A stretch of DNA of 64,000 nt from Candidatus Peregrinibacteria bacterium (GTDB lineage: Bacteria > Patescibacteriota > Gracilibacteria > UBA1369 > LOWO2-01-FULL-3). Position numbers and translations under genes: made by a program. Each line of letters begins with the position of its first letter. Positions within the stretch are counted from its first letter, which is position 1. The notes below the pieces were generated by a model, which ran no database searches, was not told where the DNA came from, and saw only the letters and a program-made list of their open reading frames with translations. The stretch is taken from the NCBI GenBank assembly GCA_018654255.1, contig JABILX010000001.1, positions 62,001-126,000 on the forward strand, written 5' to 3'. This document shows, one piece after another, positions 33,393 to 42,825 of the stretch.

Positions 33393-33623
33393 TCAATACA
33401 CATCTCCGCGAAACTTAATCGCGAGAATCCTATTGCCGTCCTCAGCTTTTTCAAACAAAATTCTAACCTTCCCTACACGACAACGATAAACAGGTATTTC
33501 ATTATGTAGTTTTTTGATATCCAACCCAGAAACCTGACCATCAGCAATCTTCTCGATAGCCAAAATAAGCCTTTTTCTAAGCGCCGGACTCAGTTTAAGT
33601 AAGAATTTTTTATATTTTTCCAT
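33393..33623 (-). CDS. RelE/ParE-superfamily toxin
   Basis: A 76-aa basic protein of the RelE/mRNA-interferase fold: helical start (KYKKFLLKLSPALRKRLILAIEKI), GLDIKKLHNEIPVYRCRVGKVRILFEK and a C-terminal IKFRGDVY. These match the toxin core (L.G...YR.RVG.yRilf). Its start overlaps the end of the AbrB-type antitoxin gene by 14 nt, the standard toxin-antitoxin arrangement with the antitoxin first. Targets are unknown. Confidence 0.88.
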   Translation of the reverse strand: MEKYKKFLLKLSPALRKRLILAIEKIADGQVSGLDIKKLHNEIPVYRCRVGKVRILFEKAEDGNRILAIKFRGDVY

Positions 33624-33849
33624 TCGCCTTTTTCAAGTTATCAGCTACAACTTTTGCATCCATCCCAAGAGGAAAACTAATACCAAATTCATCATCAGAC
33701 TCATAAAAATACCCATCCTCAACCATTGGCTTAATCAACAAACCCTGAGCAGTTTCCTGTGCAATAAAATGATCGGTTTTAAACTTATCTCTCCACGCTT
33801 TTGGCAGAGTTACTTGCCCAGTCCCAAACAATTTTAATGTAGTAATCAT
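33610..33849 (-). CDS. AbrB/MazE-type antitoxin
   Basis: A 79-aa protein with a SpoVT-AbrB swapped-hairpin DNA-binding motif at the N-terminus (LKLFGTGQVTLPKAWRDKF) and an acidic C-terminus that would neutralise the toxin. The pairing of an AbrB-type antitoxin with a RelE-type toxin is a recombinant combination also seen elsewhere. It probably autoregulates the operon. Confidence 0.87.
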   Translation of the reverse strand: MITTLKLFGTGQVTLPKAWRDKFKTDHFIAQETAQGLLIKPMVEDGYFYESDDEFGISFPLGMDAKVVADNLKKANGKI

Positions 33850-33978: not shown

Positions 33979-35160
33979 CTACGCATACCCCATCAAAATC
34001 ACAACACCCATCACAATCAAGATCACACCAGCAATCAGGTGCAATACCTTCAATCTCTTTTGTCTGATCTCCTCAGCTCTCTCAACAGAAAAGCCTTTGT
34101 AAACCGCCAAAGTTATGAAAACCATTGGAGCCACAAAAATCACATTATAAAGGACAAGCAACCTCAGGGCATGCCAGAACATATCTTGTTGTCCCAAAAG
34201 ACTGATGATCACGATATAAGGCCCGCTCGTACACGGCAACAAAAACAAACTTATCAAAAACCCAATCACAAATGCACCCGCAGGACTCGTTACACTACGC
34301 AAGATAGCCTTCATCTTAGGCCGCCATTTCATAGGCACCTCCATCACAAAGCCTTTTCCATAAAAGAAAACATCCTTCAAATTAAATAAACCAAGCAAGA
34401 TTGCCAAGACACCAACCACCTTCATAAACATCAACGAAATACCAACTGATGTAATTGCGCTATAAAGTCCAAGTCCCATCGCCAAATATGACAAGAACAC
34501 CGCAAAAGAAAAAAGCAGTCCTGAATACAAAGCTCGTTTCTTCACACCTCCGGCCAGAATAGTTGTCAACAAAATAATCAAAACCGCAAACGCACAAGGA
34601 TTAACCGCATCAACCAACGCAGCTCCTATCAATAGAGGTATGGTCAATTGTCTAGCACTATCCGAAACATTAGGATCAAAACCATCTTCAGGGCCACCAG
34701 AACCAGAAGAACCACCAGAATCCAAATCGCCATCTACATCCCCAACCACACCCGCATTCGCAATCAACCAAGCATCATACTTGTCATCCAAGAATTCAAT
34801 AATTGGTTTGTCTCCAACGAAATGCTCACTAGACGTAGCCAAAAATGGCACACCCCTATCAAACAAAGGTATCCCAAAAAACTCAGCGACCTCTCCAAAT
34901 TCAGTCGCATTATCAGAATCATGATAAACCTCCTTGAATTCCAAATTGAAAACATCCATATATCCCTCATCCTCAACGTGCTCCTCAACTTTCGCACAAT
35001 GCGGACATCCATCCCCGACATAAATCACGATTTCATCTCCTTTTGGTAGAGCAGTCGCGGCAGCAAATGGCGCAGCGAAAGCAGCACTAGAAAAAGCGCC
35101 CAGGACAAATAAACCGATGCCAAAGCCAGCAAACAAACGAGAGAATACAGATGATTTCAT
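33979..35160 (-). CDS. Thioredoxin-like/CcdA fusion (thiol-disulfide transporter)
   Basis: A 393-aa protein. A signal segment (about 8-30, ending AFAAPFA) leads to an exported thioredoxin-like domain with Cys52-Pro-His-Cys55 (YVGDGCPHCAKV). A Gly/Ser/Glu-rich linker follows, then a six-helix CcdA/DsbD-like membrane domain with the Cys-containing helices VDAVNPCAFAVLIILLTT and LISLFLLPCTSGPYIVIISL. The protein should move electrons across the membrane to extracellular disulfides, fitting the many Cys-rich surface proteins encoded nearby. I chose ATG 35160 because the 36 extra residues of the longest frame (from 35268) precede an otherwise standard signal peptide. Confidence 0.9.
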   Translation of the reverse strand: MKSSVFSRLFAGFGIGLFVLGAFSSAAFAAPFAAATALPKGDEIVIYVGDGCPHCAKVEEHVEDEGYMDVFNLEFKEVYHDSDNATEFGEVAEFFGIPLFDRGVPFLATSSEHFVGDKPIIEFLDDKYDAWLIANAGVVGDVDGDLDSGGSSGSGGPEDGFDPNVSDSARQLTIPLLIGAALVDAVNPCAFAVLIILLTTILAGGVKKRALYSGLLFSFAVFLSYLAMGLGLYSAITSVGISLMFMKVVGVLAILLGLFNLKDVFFYGKGFVMEVPMKWRPKMKAILRSVTSPAGAFVIGFLISLFLLPCTSGPYIVIISLLGQQDMFWHALRLLVLYNVIFVAPMVFITLAVYKGFSVERAEEIRQKRLKVLHLIAGVILIVMGVVILMGYA

Positions 35161-35278
35161 AGGATTTGTTATTAAGAATAGTTCGCAATAAGATGCATAA
35201 ATACTTTTACACCGAAACAGCGCAAAACTCCAAAAAAAAGCCATTTTGGGTATTGCAATTTTTTTCAAAATATGCTAT

Positions 35279-35284
35279 TATAAT
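35279..35284 (+). promoter_or_regulatory. -10 box of the UUCG-array RNA
   Basis: A perfect TATAAT at 35279-35284 in AT-rich DNA. The nearest -35-like hexamer (TTGCAA) is 20 nt upstream, which is long. Transcription would start near 35291, just before the first hairpin. Confidence 0.6.
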
Positions 35285-35290
35285 AGCGTC

Positions 35291-35538
35291 AAATGATGAT
35301 ATTTAACTTCGGTTAAGTTTCACTCACTTGGCACCGATTCCCTTCTCATTCACTTCGGTGTTTGAGACCTGAATCACCGTTCTCTCATTAGACTTCGGTC
35401 TCATGTTTGGACACCGTCCTCTCGTTAAACTTCGGTTTGATGTCTGGACACCCTCCGGTATTCCTTCGATCACTTCGGTGATCAGAGACGTACCCTTGAA
35501 GACAAGCTCCTATGTTTTACACTGGAGCTTGTTTTCTT
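35291..35538 (+). ncRNA. Candidate structured small RNA with five cUUCGg hairpins
   Basis: An RNA of about 248 nt with five hairpins, each closed by a C(UUCG)G tetraloop. They are ATTTAAC/GTTAAGT (35301-35318), CTCA-tt-CAC/GTG-tt-TGAG (35345-35366), CAT-t-AGAC/GTCT-c-ATG (35386-35405), CGTTAAAC/GTTTGATG (35423-35442) and GATCAC/GTGATC (35468-35483). The stems differ completely in sequence while the loop and pairing are kept. The middle units recur every 38-41 nt, each followed by a linker around GGACACCGTCC or GAATCACCGTTC that can itself form a small hairpin with a CACC-type loop. A promoter precedes and a Rho-independent terminator ends it. There is no ORF of note inside. No known RNA class is recognised. 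Confidence 0.78.
35502..35538 (+). terminator. Rho-independent terminator of the UUCG-array RNA
   Basis: ACAAGCTCC (35502-35510) pairs with GGAGCTTGT (35524-35532), followed by TTTTCTT. It lies about 50 nt before the convergent glycosyltransferase stop. Confidence 0.85.
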
Positions 35539-35567
35539 ATATGCGAAAAAAATCGCCACGCCAAAAT

Positions 35568-35611
35568 CTCCCGAACTTAACCACCCCTTTTACTTAAGTC
35601 CGAACTTAACT
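35568..35611. repeat. Dispersed 42-nt repeat, full copy
   Basis: ACTTAA (35575-35580) pairs with TTAAGT inside the element, and the same TTAAGT can instead pair with the following ACTTAA. It overlaps the last codons and stop of the glycosyltransferase on the minus strand. The copy at 52050 differs from it mainly at paired positions. Confidence 0.7.
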
Positions 35612-37389
35612 AAAAACTTGTGTGCCCGATCACCGATCGCCGCAGACCCCCTGGCCACCGAACCCCTGGCCGCCCCAGAACCGCCTCGCCCAAGCCCATC
35701 ATCAGCAACCCCAGCTCCAATCGAAAATTTCCCAAGCCACTTATTGAAAGGTTTCATCACACGATCGTAAGCACAATAACTTTCCAAATACTTTCGTCCC
35801 TTCGAACCATAATCCTTTCGTCGAGCAGGATTCGAATACAATTCCAAAATAGCATCACGCACTCCTTCGATAGAGCCACTAGCAACGCCAAGGCACGCCC
35901 CAAAACTTCCCATCCCATACGACAATTCAGTCCCAAAAGTCGAAACGATAGGTAGCTCAAACTTCATCATCTCAAGCAACCGATTCCGAGATCCAGTCAG
36001 AGTGTCGAGACATCTTCGATCAACATTGATCCCAATATCAGCCTCCCTATATAGATAAGGAATATGTTTCGCCGGCACCCATCCCAAAAACTTAAATTGA
36101 TCCTTGAACCGCGAAAGCCCAACCATCTCTTTGAAATTCAAATAAGTCTTATTTGCTCCCTCGCTCACAGAAGCCTCCGATTTAGACAATTCAGACAAAC
36201 CCCCAGTCGAAACAAAATAAATCTCACGCGTCCGATTCAGTCCCGAGCCACGCCGAGCACTAGAACCACCTCCACCTCCACCTCCAGCTCCCGACTCCGA
36301 ACCCTCGTCAGCCCCAGCGACAGCTGCCATCGCAGCCTCAACGCCTTTAAACAAAGTCTCTTCATCCACCCAAGCCGAATAACTTCCAAGCCACAAAATA
36401 ACAAACGCATTCGAAGGAATATCAGCTCCACTATAAGACGACGGTCCTCGGAAATATCTCAAACCAGAATCCTCAACCTCCTCAAGACCTCCAGCCGACC
36501 AAGCTCTGTCCGCAGACGGTGAGTTACGAACCGTGCGTACAATTTTTTCAATCCGATCCGACTTGAAATCTTCCAAACCATTTTCAATCGTCACAACAAA
36601 CTCGCGATCAAATTCATAAGCACCCATCTTTTTCATCATCGCCAATTCTCCAACTACAGTATATTTTTGAGCTTCAGACACGACCGAAATAAAATCCGCA
36701 CGAGCCAGTACATTTTCCTCAAGCCGTAAGTAGCTGCCAAGCCTTCGATCATTTCGCGTCTTGTAAGCGTCGATTTGAGCCTTTGCCATAGTCCAACCCG
36801 CCATATCCGCCCAAAACACACAATCAAACCTCATACGACTCAAAACATTACAAACATCCAAATTCACTCCAATAATCACATCGGGTTTATGCTCATCGAT
36901 GATCGATTGCAAAGTCCCATATAAAGAGGAGTCGTTTTCAGAAATCTGATGATGAATAAAATTCGCACCATATTTATAATCTTTTCTTAATAAACTTTCT
37001 CGGGTCACTTTTGCGTCAGCGCCAGCTCCAGAACCAGCCGCCCCGTCCGAGCCGCCATCCGCAAACCCAAGCGATGCTTGTGTCCCAACCTCAGGTTCCA
37101 GATCTTCATCGTCATAACAATCATCCACAGCGATCGTAACCAATCTCAAATCAAGTCCACTTCGAGGAACCATCTTCGATAAAACACGCCCGTTCCTAGA
37201 TCCATCTTCACCTGCCGAGCTGCCGGCCATCGAGCCGCTGGTCGAACCAGCAGCCGAACCATTCGTCATTCCTCCGGTCAACGCCTTTACAAATTGCCAA
37301 GTACGCAAACCTTCAGAAGGTCTTTTTTTTACATTGTCATCCGGCAACGGAGCATTCCCCACAAGCAGCACTCTTTTCATTTTGGTCAA
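35590..37389 (-). CDS. Glycosyltransferase (GT4-like) with Gly/Ser-rich insertions
   Basis: A 599-aa GT-B-like protein. The C-terminal donor domain shows FKFLGWVPAKHIPYLYREAD, VDRRCLDTLTGSRNRLLEMM and a tail KDYGSKGRKYLESYCAYDRV typical of group 1 glycosyltransferases. The fold is interrupted by low-complexity, GC-rich insertions: Ser/Gly/Ala/Met near residues 40-65 and a run of Gly and Ser near 370-385, plus a Gly/Ala/Ser tail. The 3' end contains a copy of the dispersed 42-nt repeat, which supplies the last codons. A minus-strand promoter (TTTACA, 18 nt, TATAAT) lies upstream near 37420. Substrate unknown; a surface-glycan role is likely. Confidence 0.8.
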   Translation of the reverse strand: MTKMKRVLLVGNAPLPDDNVKKRPSEGLRTWQFVKALTGGMTNGSAAGSTSGSMAGSSAGEDGSRNGRVLSKMVPRSGLDLRLVTIAVDDCYDDEDLEPEVGTQASLGFADGGSDGAAGSGAGADAKVTRESLLRKDYKYGANFIHHQISENDSSLYGTLQSIIDEHKPDVIIGVNLDVCNVLSRMRFDCVFWADMAGWTMAKAQIDAYKTRNDRRLGSYLRLEENVLARADFISVVSEAQKYTVVGELAMMKKMGAYEFDREFVVTIENGLEDFKSDRIEKIVRTVRNSPSADRAWSAGGLEEVEDSGLRYFRGPSSYSGADIPSNAFVILWLGSYSAWVDEETLFKGVEAAMAAVAGADEGSESGAGGGGGGGSSARRGSGLNRTREIYFVSTGGLSELSKSEASVSEGANKTYLNFKEMVGLSRFKDQFKFLGWVPAKHIPYLYREADIGINVDRRCLDTLTGSRNRLLEMMKFELPIVSTFGTELSYGMGSFGACLGVASGSIEGVRDAILELYSNPARRKDYGSKGRKYLESYCAYDRVMKPFNKWLGKFSIGAGVADDGLGRGGSGAARGSVARGSAAIGDRAHKFLVKFGLK

Positions 37390-38274: not shown

Positions 38275-41200
38275 ATGGACAGTATTCGTAGGGCAATTGC
38301 GACGTTTTCGATCGTTGCAATTCTCTCGTCATTCGTGGTGTCAACGGCTTCAGCAGCTTCTTTTGGAGATGTTGCAGCAGACGACTATTACTACGACGCA
38401 GTTGAGTCGCTAGTAGCAGACGGAATTGTTGACCCAGGTGACACTTATAATCCGGCAACTGGTCTGACCAGAGCTTTAGCAGCTAAGTACCTAGTAATGG
38501 GTGCTGGTTGGGAGGTAACAACTCACACTGAAGCTACTTTCACAGACGTGCCAACAACTCATCCACAATTTGACCTAATTGAGACCGCTGTTGATCACGG
38601 TTTCATGAACGGATATGGTGGAGACCTAGCAGGAATGTTCGGTCCTAGCGACGTTGTAAATAGAGCAGATTTCTCAAAGATGGCTGTTGCAGCTTTCGAA
38701 CTTCCTGAATACACTCCAGCTACTGCAACTTTCTCAGACGTAGCAACTGACGCATACTACTTTATGTCTGTTGAAACTGCTGCTAAATACGAAGTTGTTA
38801 GTGGATACGGAGGAGCTATGGCTGGAATGTTCGGACCTGCTGATACAATCAACAGGGCTGACGGAGCTATGCTAGTTAACAACGCTCAAACAGCTGATCT
38901 TACAGAAGATCCTGCTGATGACGGCGACGACGACGATGATGACGAACCAGATACAGTTTACGAAGGTGACCTTGAGGTTACTCTTTCAGATGACTCTCCA
39001 GATCCAGATACACTTCCTAACGGAGCAACTTCAGTTCCTGTAGCTAAGTGGGACTTCACAGCAGGTGATGGTGATGCTGAACTAGATAGACTTATTGTTC
39101 ACACATATGGTGTAACATCTCTACCTACAACGCACAGCCTTTACATCTACGACGGAGTAGACAGGCTAACATCAGGAAAGAGTGTAAACAGCTCTACAAA
39201 CCAAGTAACTTTCAACAACCTAGGTATAGAAATTGAAGACGGAGACACTTTGACTCTTACTTTGAAACTAGACACAGGTACTGTTGCAACTTCAACAGAA
39301 GCAGCTTTCGAACTGGAAGATGTTGATGCTGTTGACGCTGGTGACGCTGAAATCGACGGAGACTTCCCACTTCGAGCAGGAGTATGGACTCTCTCTACAA
39401 TTTCTGCAGGTACAGTTCTTATTGAAAAGAACGGTACAATCACAAGCCCAAAAGTTGGAGAAGACGACGTTACAATTGCTAAGTTCAAAATTGGAGCTTC
39501 CGTAGAAGCAGCAGAAATTGAACAAATTGGACTTCTTATAACAGGTACAGTCTCAAACGATGCAGTTGAAAACCTAGAACTTTATGTTTCTGGAGAAGAT
39601 GATCCAATTGCAACAGTTGATGGTTTGAACGCAAAAGACCTAGCTGTATTTGTACTTGATACTCCTTACGACATCGTGAAAGGAGATACAAAGAGCTTCA
39701 CAATGAAAGGCGACTTCAACACTGGTCGTTCAGCTGACACTGTACTAGTATACGTTGACGAAACTACAGACATAGTTGCGATCGGCGGAACATACGGTTA
39801 CGGAATGGCGGTAACAACCAATACTGCAACTTCAGGATACGATGGTGTGACAAATGCTTGTACTTCAGCTGCTGGAACATGTTCTTACTCTGTTCTAGAA
39901 GGAGGAGACGTTACTGTAACATCTTCAGGTCCTTCTGCGGATGATGTTGGTATAGGTGAAGACGATGTAGTTTTGATGAACTTCTCAATCACATCTGTTT
40001 CAGACATCACAGTCAAGAACTTGCCAATAATGTTGATGACAAATGGATCAGGATATGGTGATGATGGGTTAATCTCTGATGGTTTAGATGATGGAGCTAC
40101 TACTACTACTGGTGATGCAGCTAATTATACAGACATCAAGATTATCAACGTAGACACAGGTTCTACATTGATGGGACCAATCGACTCAGACGTATTGAAT
40201 ACTTCAGCTTACGCAGGAACAGTAGCTGATAATACAGATGATGATGGTTTCTACCTATTCACAGACGAATTCGACATGGATGCTGGTGAAGAGCTAAACC
40301 TAGCTTTGACAGTTGACGTTGCTAATCTTGCTGGATTAGCTACAGGTACAATCTACGGAGCTATACAGCTTGGAGGTACGTACCCACAAATGAAAGATGT
40401 GAATAACAAGACAGTTACAAATTCTTCATCTCTTGTTCCTACGGCAAGTATCACAGGTAAAACAATGACTACTGCTTTGCCATCTCTTACAACAGCTTTG
40501 GCTGCTGTGCCAGTAGCAGGGGCTACAACACAGGTTAAGGGTCAACAAGATGTAGAGTTCGTAGGTATCACTGCATCATGTGGGGCTGCTTCAGATTGTA
40601 AACTTACCGACATTGCTTTGGTAGGATACTACGACACAGATGATGATCAAGTTTTCGCTGCAGGAGTAGAAACACAATACGTTAACGCTTCTGTAGGTAG
40701 TGTATGGATTGTAAACGGTGACGGAGAAGAAGTTGCACCAGCAAAAGCCGTTCAAAGTGATGGAGCTGTTACTTATGACAGTCTTACTTATGAAATGGAA
40801 GCAGGTGAAACAGACATCTTCTACGTAATGGGAGATCTATCTTCTAATGCTGTTGCAACTGACTACGTTGCATTCAGTATGATAACTGCAGGAATATCTT
40901 TTGAAGATGACGATGGTACTACTAGGACATCTACAGGTGCTGTAAATGGTACTACTGATGCAACAACATATGTTCTTATGTCAGCTGGAGGTTCATTGAC
41001 AATTGCTGTTGACGCATCTACTGCAAAAGAAGATATCGTAATCGCAGGAGCTTCAGACCAAGAAATTAGTAAATACAAGTTCACTACTACTGACGAGCCG
41101 TTTACCGTTAAATCTCTATCGATTAACGCTAGACAAGCAGTCGCAGGAACAATAGAGGATATTGACGCTGCAGACCTTGGTGCTTACGATAACAACATTT

Positions 41201-42825
41201 CTTCTATTACAATTTCTTATGTAAATAGTGATGGAGATACAGAAACTAAGTCAGGTTACTTGAGTAGTGGTACTGCTGACTTCTCAGGAATGGACATGTT
41301 CATCGACAAAGATGATGATGCAGTTCTAACAGTTTACGCAGACCTAAATACTATCTCAAATGGTGCTACACAAGCAGAATACGTAGACCTGAATATTGCA
41401 TTCAACGACTTCGAAGCTCTAGCAGAATCAAGTGGTGGAACATACAACGCTGACAAGCTTGATGAGGATGTTGCTGCAACATCAGATCTAGATTTTGGAA
41501 CAATCACATGGATTGATTCAGCTTACGACACAGATACTGAAACTACGACAGGAGCCTTAGGAGCTTCAATGGCATTGAGTATCGACACAGGGACAGTAAC
41601 AGGACTGCCCGTTGGTACATTATTGTTCATTGATGCGGGTGCGACAGGTGCTTATGTAGACACTGCTGATTCTCTATTCGTTACAACTGCTGCATGGAGC
41701 ACAACAGTTCCAACAGTAACAGTTCTTGGAAACGATGACGCAACTCTAGCTACTGGTTTGAACGTTTACTTTGCACTTCCAGGTACAGGTTACCTAACTG
41801 CGGCTAAACAAATGCACGTTTACGAAACTAAACCAACTGTAACTCTTGCAACTGATTCTCCATCAGGAGACGTTTCTATGAGTTCAGCTGACACAGTATT
41901 CAAATTTGTTGTGGCAGCTAACGCTCAAGAAAAAGTTCAGATCAGACAAGAATCTGGTACCCTAAGATATGATGCTGATACAGATAACTGGGCAACCGTT
42001 GGAATGGCAGTTAGTATTAGTACATCAGTATTGGCAGAAGGTACTGCATCAGTCACTGCAACTGAGGATGCAATTTCAGCTGACACTGATTACGCATACT
42101 ACGACACAGGAGCAGCATCAGCAGGTCTTGAAGGTTACGCATCTGTTAGCTTCTGGGTAAAGAGTACTGCAGCTAAAGCATCTGGAGACATACAGTGGTG
42201 TATGGACGGTGCTACAGACATGACAGCAGCGTGTGATGAGGTCCTTGAAATAGGTGCTCTTACTGCTAACACATGGACTTATGTAACACTGGCATGTAGT
42301 GCCTCAGTATGTGGAAATTCTGGTACTAGATACATCGGTGTAAACATCGAAGCTAATCCGGATAATAACAACGTAATCTACATCGACGATATCAGATTCC
42401 ACGCGGCTACAGATATTAATGACAAGATCAGAGTTACACTTGCTTCTGATGCAAGTATGACTACTACAGCAGATAACATCCGAGCTTTATTGAAAGAGGA
42501 TGGTTCAACTGTAGCTGAAGGAGGTATCAATATGTCATCAGCTTCGGCAGGAACTATTGATTTCTTCCCATACACTACAGACTACACAGACATTGATATT
42601 GAGAAAGGAGCTTCAAAGACCTTCTCTGTAGTTTTGAACACTTCTGAACTTATAACTGATCAAGCTGGTGTTGACGACAAGTTGACTCCAAGTATCCTAC
42701 TTGGAACAGCAACTAACGGAACAGTATCAGACGGAAGTTTCAAATGGTATGACACTAATGCACAGGTTACATGGCTTGGAAAAGTAAGTAACTCAACATT
42801 CAATGGTGATACATTGAAGTACTAG
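38275..42825 (+). CDS. SLH-domain S-layer protein
   Basis: A 1516-aa exported protein and probably the main surface-layer subunit. A signal peptide (about 1-30, ending VSTASAAS) is followed by three SLH-like repeats (about 30-205, each with FxDV near the start and an INRAD/VNRAD-type motif) that would bind cell-wall polymer. A poly-Asp linker comes next, and then roughly 1200 residues of beta-rich, Thr/Asp/Gly-rich repeats. A carbohydrate-binding or laminin-G-like module lies near 1270-1380 (SVSFWVKSTAAKASGDIQWC, IYIDDIRF). Codon choice favours gct/act/gtt endings compared with neighbours, consistent with high expression. It has several upstream promoters, a structured leader and a strong terminator. 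Confidence 0.85.
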   Translation: MDSIRRAIATFSIVAILSSFVVSTASAASFGDVAADDYYYDAVESLVADGIVDPGDTYNPATGLTRALAAKYLVMGAGWEVTTHTEATFTDVPTTHPQFDLIETAVDHGFMNGYGGDLAGMFGPSDVVNRADFSKMAVAAFELPEYTPATATFSDVATDAYYFMSVETAAKYEVVSGYGGAMAGMFGPADTINRADGAMLVNNAQTADLTEDPADDGDDDDDDEPDTVYEGDLEVTLSDDSPDPDTLPNGATSVPVAKWDFTAGDGDAELDRLIVHTYGVTSLPTTHSLYIYDGVDRLTSGKSVNSSTNQVTFNNLGIEIEDGDTLTLTLKLDTGTVATSTEAAFELEDVDAVDAGDAEIDGDFPLRAGVWTLSTISAGTVLIEKNGTITSPKVGEDDVTIAKFKIGASVEAAEIEQIGLLITGTVSNDAVENLELYVSGEDDPIATVDGLNAKDLAVFVLDTPYDIVKGDTKSFTMKGDFNTGRSADTVLVYVDETTDIVAIGGTYGYGMAVTTNTATSGYDGVTNACTSAAGTCSYSVLEGGDVTVTSSGPSADDVGIGEDDVVLMNFSITSVSDITVKNLPIMLMTNGSGYGDDGLISDGLDDGATTTTGDAANYTDIKIINVDTGSTLMGPIDSDVLNTSAYAGTVADNTDDDGFYLFTDEFDMDAGEELNLALTVDVANLAGLATGTIYGAIQLGGTYPQMKDVNNKTVTNSSSLVPTASITGKTMTTALPSLTTALAAVPVAGATTQVKGQQDVEFVGITASCGAASDCKLTDIALVGYYDTDDDQVFAAGVETQYVNASVGSVWIVNGDGEEVAPAKAVQSDGAVTYDSLTYEMEAGETDIFYVMGDLSSNAVATDYVAFSMITAGISFEDDDGTTRTSTGAVNGTTDATTYVLMSAGGSLTIAVDASTAKEDIVIAGASDQEISKYKFTTTDEPFTVKSLSINARQAVAGTIEDIDAADLGAYDNNISSITISYVNSDGDTETKSGYLSSGTADFSGMDMFIDKDDDAVLTVYADLNTISNGATQAEYVDLNIAFNDFEALAESSGGTYNADKLDEDVAATSDLDFGTITWIDSAYDTDTETTTGALGASMALSIDTGTVTGLPVGTLLFIDAGATGAYVDTADSLFVTTAAWSTTVPTVTVLGNDDATLATGLNVYFALPGTGYLTAAKQMHVYETKPTVTLATDSPSGDVSMSSADTVFKFVVAANAQEKVQIRQESGTLRYDADTDNWATVGMAVSISTSVLAEGTASVTATEDAISADTDYAYYDTGAASAGLEGYASVSFWVKSTAAKASGDIQWCMDGATDMTAACDEVLEIGALTANTWTYVTLACSASVCGNSGTRYIGVNIEANPDNNNVIYIDDIRFHAATDINDKIRVTLASDASMTTTADNIRALLKEDGSTVAEGGINMSSASAGTIDFFPYTTDYTDIDIEKGASKTFSVVLNTSELITDQAGVDDKLTPSILLGTATNGTVSDGSFKWYDTNAQVTWLGKVSNSTFNGDTLKY

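Follow-up and report, generated by a model that had tools for sequence, protein, structure and literature searches.

A lineage-restricted family of structured RNAs built from hairpin modules in Peregrinibacteria

Introduction

Five closely spaced hairpins, each capped by the same tetraloop, occur in a genome fragment of a Candidatus Peregrinibacteria bacterium (contig JABILX010000001.1, positions 62,001 to 126,000; this stretch of 64,000 nucleotides is called the window below). Is this array the gene of an RNA, and if so, how could such an RNA act? A preliminary description, made from the sequence alone, had interpreted it as a candidate new structured RNA, transcribed from a promoter of its own and closed by a terminator. 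Here we examine the array in the window, its homologues, its genomic neighbourhood and the alternative explanations for its presence.

Results

The hairpin array in the window

Sequence inspection and RNA folding located the array on the forward strand at 35288-35538, flanked by a promoter on its 5′ side and an intrinsic terminator on its 3′ side. All five cUUCGg hairpins of the preliminary description were present on this strand. Of the 13 CTTCGG motifs on the forward strand of the window, five fall within 170 nt of the array (chance P ~4e-10). The array is single-copy in this genome and consists of the following elements, all on the + strand:

35253-35258 (+): −35 element TTGCAA, from a promoter scan; TTG-type −35 at equal spacing in the homologues
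35276-35281 (+): TATTAT of the extended −10 element TGC-TATTAT, with a 17-nt spacer from the −35; TGn-TATTAT/TATAAT-like −10 aligned across homologues
35279-35284 (+): TATAAT overlapping the −10 element, shifted by 3 nt relative to TATTAT
near 35288 (+): predicted 5′ end of the RNA, from the conserved promoter signals
35288-35333 (+): 5′ module, hairpin 1, cUUCGg, from folding; GCA...UGC closing stem in most homologues
35336-35375 (+): middle module 2, outer stem GAUUC/GAAUC, cUUCGg, from folding and covariation of pooled middle modules
35379-35412 (+): middle module 3, outer stem GUUC/GGAC, cUUCGg, on the same evidence
35416-35449 (+): middle module 4, outer stem GUCC/GGAC, cUUCGg, on the same evidence
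35450-35456 (+): unpaired linker ACCCUCC on the 5′ side of the head, (nearly) invariant among homologues
35457-35494 (+): head module, GGUAUUCCUUCGA...cUUCGg...GUACC (hairpin 5), conserved more strongly than any other part, from covariance models R1/R2 and covariation
35499-35538 (+): intrinsic terminator hairpin GACAAGCUCC/GGAGCUUGUU with U-rich tail, from folding; a terminator in every homologue

The element folds at −88.7 kcal/mol (z −7.32), and none of 200 shuffled sequences was as stable. The reverse strand was rejected as the RNA, being less stable (z −5.2) and opposed by the G-U asymmetry described below. Each of the linkers GGACACCGTCC and GAATCACCGTTC spans the boundary between two modules: the outer stem of the first contributes its 3′ arm and that of the second its 5′ arm, with ACC left unpaired between them.

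Both neighbouring genes lie on the reverse strand: a DsbD/thioredoxin-like membrane protein at 33979-35160, named by sequence character and without a Pfam match, and a glycosyltransferase at 35590-37389 (Pfam PF13692, just below the cut-off). Hence, the array RNA would be a separate transcription unit rather than the leader, untranslated region or tail of an mRNA. The only listed forward-strand open reading frame over the array (35403-35597) starts within module 3 and ends beyond the terminator.

Elsewhere in the window, a reverse-strand gene pair at 33393-33849 comprises a weak match to a ParE toxin (PF05016, below the cut-off) and a small possible antitoxin before it. The forward-strand gene at 38275-42825 encodes a secreted protein of 1516 aa with SLH-like N-terminal repeats, judging from its sequence probably a surface protein.

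Homologues are confined to one bacterial family

In total, 18 copies of the element, including that of the window, were found in 17 of 30 genomes examined from one Peregrinibacteria family. Comparison with 99 relatives by blastn gave partial matches, and inspection of these revealed complete elements in five genomes (G021, G026, G018, G007 and G009). Six sequences of the last module were used to build a covariance model (R1), which added eight genomes (G010, G012, G029, G027, G001, G022, G019 and G025), and a second model built from 15 sequences (R2) added G016 and G028. The copy in G002 scored weakly with R2 (E 0.04) and has a clear architecture. Among the named carriers are Candidatus Peregrinibacteria SI054_bin37 and CSMAG_205.

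Covariance-model searches of 353 genomes of the class and 380 genomes of the phylum gave no convincing copy outside the family; both models detect the head module only and these large searches were strictly filtered, so that head-less arrays would escape them. The preliminary description had asked for homologues in genomes of the Candidate Phyla Radiation (CPR); those found are restricted to a single family and are not CPR-wide. No RNA was detected in 13 of the 30 family genomes, some of which are incomplete; in these 13 genomes the RNA is dispensable or escapes the model.

Several other matches were discarded. Exact motif matches in a spirochaete (L058, Spirochaetes) and a member of the Anaerolineaceae (L061) are due to chance, lacking both promoter and array. 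Weak model matches in G030, G060, G340, G011, G023, G005 and G020, as well as at second sites in G026 and G028, were put down to chance on inspection or left unclaimed. A motif search of viral contigs gave no match. One contig labelled Nitrospirota (JAUVQE010000001.1, L059) carries the Peregrinibacteria RNA together with its hpf neighbourhood, and its label looks wrong.

Modular architecture

Promoter, hairpin modules and terminator were present in all 18 copies. The sequences turn over while the architecture is kept, and the number of modules ranges from two (G016, G027, G028) through five in the window to about eleven in G002 (527 nt). Typically, a module closed by GCA/UGC is followed by zero to nine middle modules, the head and the terminator. 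The head reads (A)CCCUCC-GGUAUUCYUUYGA...UACC; over the copies its motif is YCUCY-GRUAUYCNUUNGA, with a 3′ closing UAYC in most of them. Genome G019 carries a tandem pair of complete copies, both of which have their own promoter and terminator (L051, G019:C121, 150-640). The expanded copy of G002 (L086, G002:C27) adjoins an open reading frame that resembles, by eye only, a UvrD-type helicase.

This comparison refined several details of the preliminary description. Its promoter is there, as an extended −10 with a −35 element, but the homologues favour TATTAT over the perfect TATAAT that had been named as the −10. Its C(UUCG)G loop holds for the five modules of the window, whereas the homologues, in which UUCG is still the main loop, also have CUCG, GCAA, GUAA, GAAA, UUUU, longer loops and others; UUCG is therefore frequent and not required. 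The linkers had been called pairable, and their ends do pair as arms of the outer stems, but homologues such as G021 do not preserve a hairpin formed by the linker itself, and it was dropped from the architecture. The Rho-independent terminator was seen here and in every homologue.

Covariation and composition

The folds of the homologues have z-scores of −5.4 to −11.8. Standard pairs made up 85.2% of the pair cells of the head, compared to 41-49% in slid controls; the alignment was fitted to the model and thereby favours the structure, but the contrast with sliding is large nonetheless. Double changes were found at seven of the 14 head pairs (25 cells, against 9.7 in shuffles), and the pooled middle modules showed compensatory changes at 7/8 pairs. 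Covariation in the 5′ module was weaker (4/9 pairs, energy −1.45). The differing but pairing stems had been taken as a sign of RNA function, and the covarying pairs in head and middle modules agree with this. Cells with G-U outnumbered those with A-C by 29 to 9, which identifies the forward strand as the RNA.

Unpaired bases outside the loops were 79% pyrimidine and included only 20 G among 812, while shuffles average ~5-11% G. About half of the copies showed this contrast with shuffles strongly and the others weakly; the window's copy is among several in which neither G depletion nor pyrimidine content clearly exceeds the shuffles. The G-poor unpaired segments are suggestive of a display of pyrimidine sites or of plain avoidance of mispairing.

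Comparison with known RNAs

When the window, together with 16 loci of homologues, was compared with Rfam 15 by cmscan, no match reached the gathering score, and a permissive threshold added chance-level matches only. In particular, the raiA motif RNA (ModT, RF03072) was not matched in the window or at the 16 loci. 6S RNA (RF00013) was rejected because it has no match at the array, and the genome's own 6S RNA lies elsewhere (G000:C3 179416-179569). The array resembles 6S RNA in size range and independent transcription, but 6S RNA is one long hairpin with a central bulge whereas the array RNA is a string of hairpins.

With the CsrB/RsmY/RsmZ sponges the array shares an intergenic position, its own promoter and terminator, many hairpins, a variable number of modules and, plausibly, multivalent protein binding. 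These sponges present GGA in their hairpin loops and single strands; in contrast, the array has UUCG, CUCG, GCAA and similar loops and almost no unpaired G, and GGA (ANGGA) was absent from the loops of all 18 copies. ModT is likewise an independent structured ncRNA that often adjoins a raiA/hpf gene (PMC11706538), but it folds compactly and is predicted to contain two pseudoknots, unlike the linear, expandable string of Peregrinibacteria without an Rfam match. C-rich antisense sRNAs (RsaE-type, with UCCC seeds) share the exposed C-rich seed and the intrinsic terminator; the array RNA differs by its long string of modules, in a lineage nearly without Shine-Dalgarno (SD) motifs and without Hfq. 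Our literature searches found nothing matching on CPR ncRNAs or hairpin-array sponges, and no published small RNA from Peregrinibacteria.

Promoter, covarying structure and intrinsic terminator thus occur together without a conserved open reading frame (the conservation of reading frames among homologues was judged by eye only), as in an independent bacterial ncRNA. The homologues with covarying stems in the same promoter and terminator frame, 17 beyond the window's copy, and the lack of an Rfam match uphold the preliminary view of an RNA outside the known signatures. That the array constitutes an RNA family is very likely, and its status as a new, lineage-restricted structured ncRNA family outside Rfam 15 is well supported.

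Neighbourhood of hpf

A ribosome-hibernation gene of the hpf/RaiA type (PF02482) lies within ~1 kb of the RNA in 13 of the 17 carriers, often in divergent orientation. The RNA is located elsewhere in G000 (the window's genome), G018 and G002, and in G019 the locus is cut by a contig end. Five genomes (G008, G013, G014, G015 and G023) have hpf without the RNA, and there the usual neighbour, a small membrane protein of the MDVDK type, directly follows. Hence, the RNA is not needed for the persistence of hpf. The RNA was inherited at the hpf locus or moved from it.

Discussion

How might the RNA act? Transcription would start at ~35288 and end at the intrinsic terminator at ~35535, as the conserved signals indicate, yielding an ncRNA of about 245-250 nt from an independent gene. 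Folding and covariation support a string of hairpin modules as the structure of this product. Stable tetraloops would lock the modules and keep short unpaired pyrimidine segments apart (the ACC and ACCCUCC linkers and UCU-type internal loops). The 3′ head, CCCUCC-GGUAUUCYUUYGA-hairpin-UACC, may be a specific recognition site, to which the upstream modules, free in sequence and number, could add further binding sites. A protein partner bound at several places might then be titrated or scaffolded. We tentatively favour this action in trans, in which the RNA would present its unpaired pyrimidine segments multivalently to a protein, as a plausible reading that could well prove wrong. It fits best because module number varies (2 to 11) and sequences turn over freely beside one conserved head. 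The lack of unpaired G, however, may reflect only selection against misfolding, and pairing with a fixed target would account just as well for a conserved head present in single copy.

Base pairing is the main rival to multivalent protein binding, and we regard it as possible but somewhat doubtful. The exposed CCCUCC, with its anti-SD-like core, would pair in trans with G-rich sites in mRNAs and block or free their translation, while the upstream hairpins protect the RNA from decay. YCUCC/YCUCU stands directly 5′ of the head stem in nearly all copies, although part of the CC is paired in three of them (G021, G010, G026). As is usual for small RNAs, the array begins with a stable hairpin and ends in a strong intrinsic terminator, and C-rich single-stranded seeds have been discussed for other bacterial sRNAs. 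Against base pairing, SD motifs precede only two of the 39 gene starts in the window, where 5.5 are expected, and a Peregrinibacterium is listed as SD-scarce (PMC10783764); SD masking is therefore unlikely to be the main route. The 16S rRNA retains CACCUCCUUU in the six genomes in which that end was seen. Hfq (PF17209) was found in none of the 30 family genomes, while the same search was positive in 5/14 control genomes, which weighs against base pairing and led us to reject an Hfq-dependent sRNA. As a separate observation, TTAAC and TAACC are enriched in the 22 nt upstream of the 39 window starts (7 and 6 of 39, where 1.1 and 0.8 would be expected), a possible signal of alternative initiation or of leaderless promoters.

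The C/U-rich, almost G-free unpaired segments also recall rut sites, and the RNA could on that ground be a decoy for Rho. The RNA-binding domain of Rho was, however, found in 2/30 family genomes, not including the window's, compared to 9/14 control genomes, and its absence from nearly all the family makes the probability of a decoy practically negligible. The two genomes with the domain (L136, G024; L137, G002) are fragmented, and the contigs concerned may be contaminants. Taken together, the findings on Hfq, Rho and SD motifs speak against three mechanisms, namely a decoy for Rho, an sRNA working with Hfq, and SD masking in general. An element acting as DNA (a mobile element, an origin or a hairpin array like attC sites), or an array that arose by chance and has no role as RNA, could account for the different location in three genomes and the tandem copies in one. 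It is very improbable in view of the G-U-rich covariation on one strand, the promoter and terminator of every copy, the single copy in the window's genome and the absence of any recombinase seen adjoining the array.

The neighbourhood raises a further alternative, that the RNA partners the adjacent HPF/RaiA-type protein, for example by binding HPF or the 30S subunit in resting cells. The 13 carriers with hpf nearby point this way, as does the ModT parallel, in which raiA is a neighbour in 66% of cases (PMC11706538). Yet shared inheritance of one locus would explain the synteny, the RNA lies apart from hpf in three genomes, and five others keep hpf without it. Pairing of the head GGUAUUCC to helix 23 of the 16S rRNA, suggested by the common bacterial GGAAUACC, was rejected: all 12 sequences seen have GGAACACC, which leaves an A-C mismatch with the head. 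We consider a role in hibernation unlikely.

The array may, in the widest reading, represent an expandable modular class of CPR ncRNAs that forms a multivalent hub for an RNA-binding protein, in cells that have neither Hfq nor Rho and few SD motifs, and with a possible hpf-linked role in hibernation; this is a speculation to which we give little credence. Hfq and Rho, the usual RNA regulators, seem to be missing from Peregrinibacteria, and a conserved RNA gene with covarying pairs and an expandable array offers a tangible starting point for the study of RNA-based regulation in the CPR. That the RNA so often adjoins hpf, as does the unrelated ModT, makes a link between structured RNA and dormancy directly testable.
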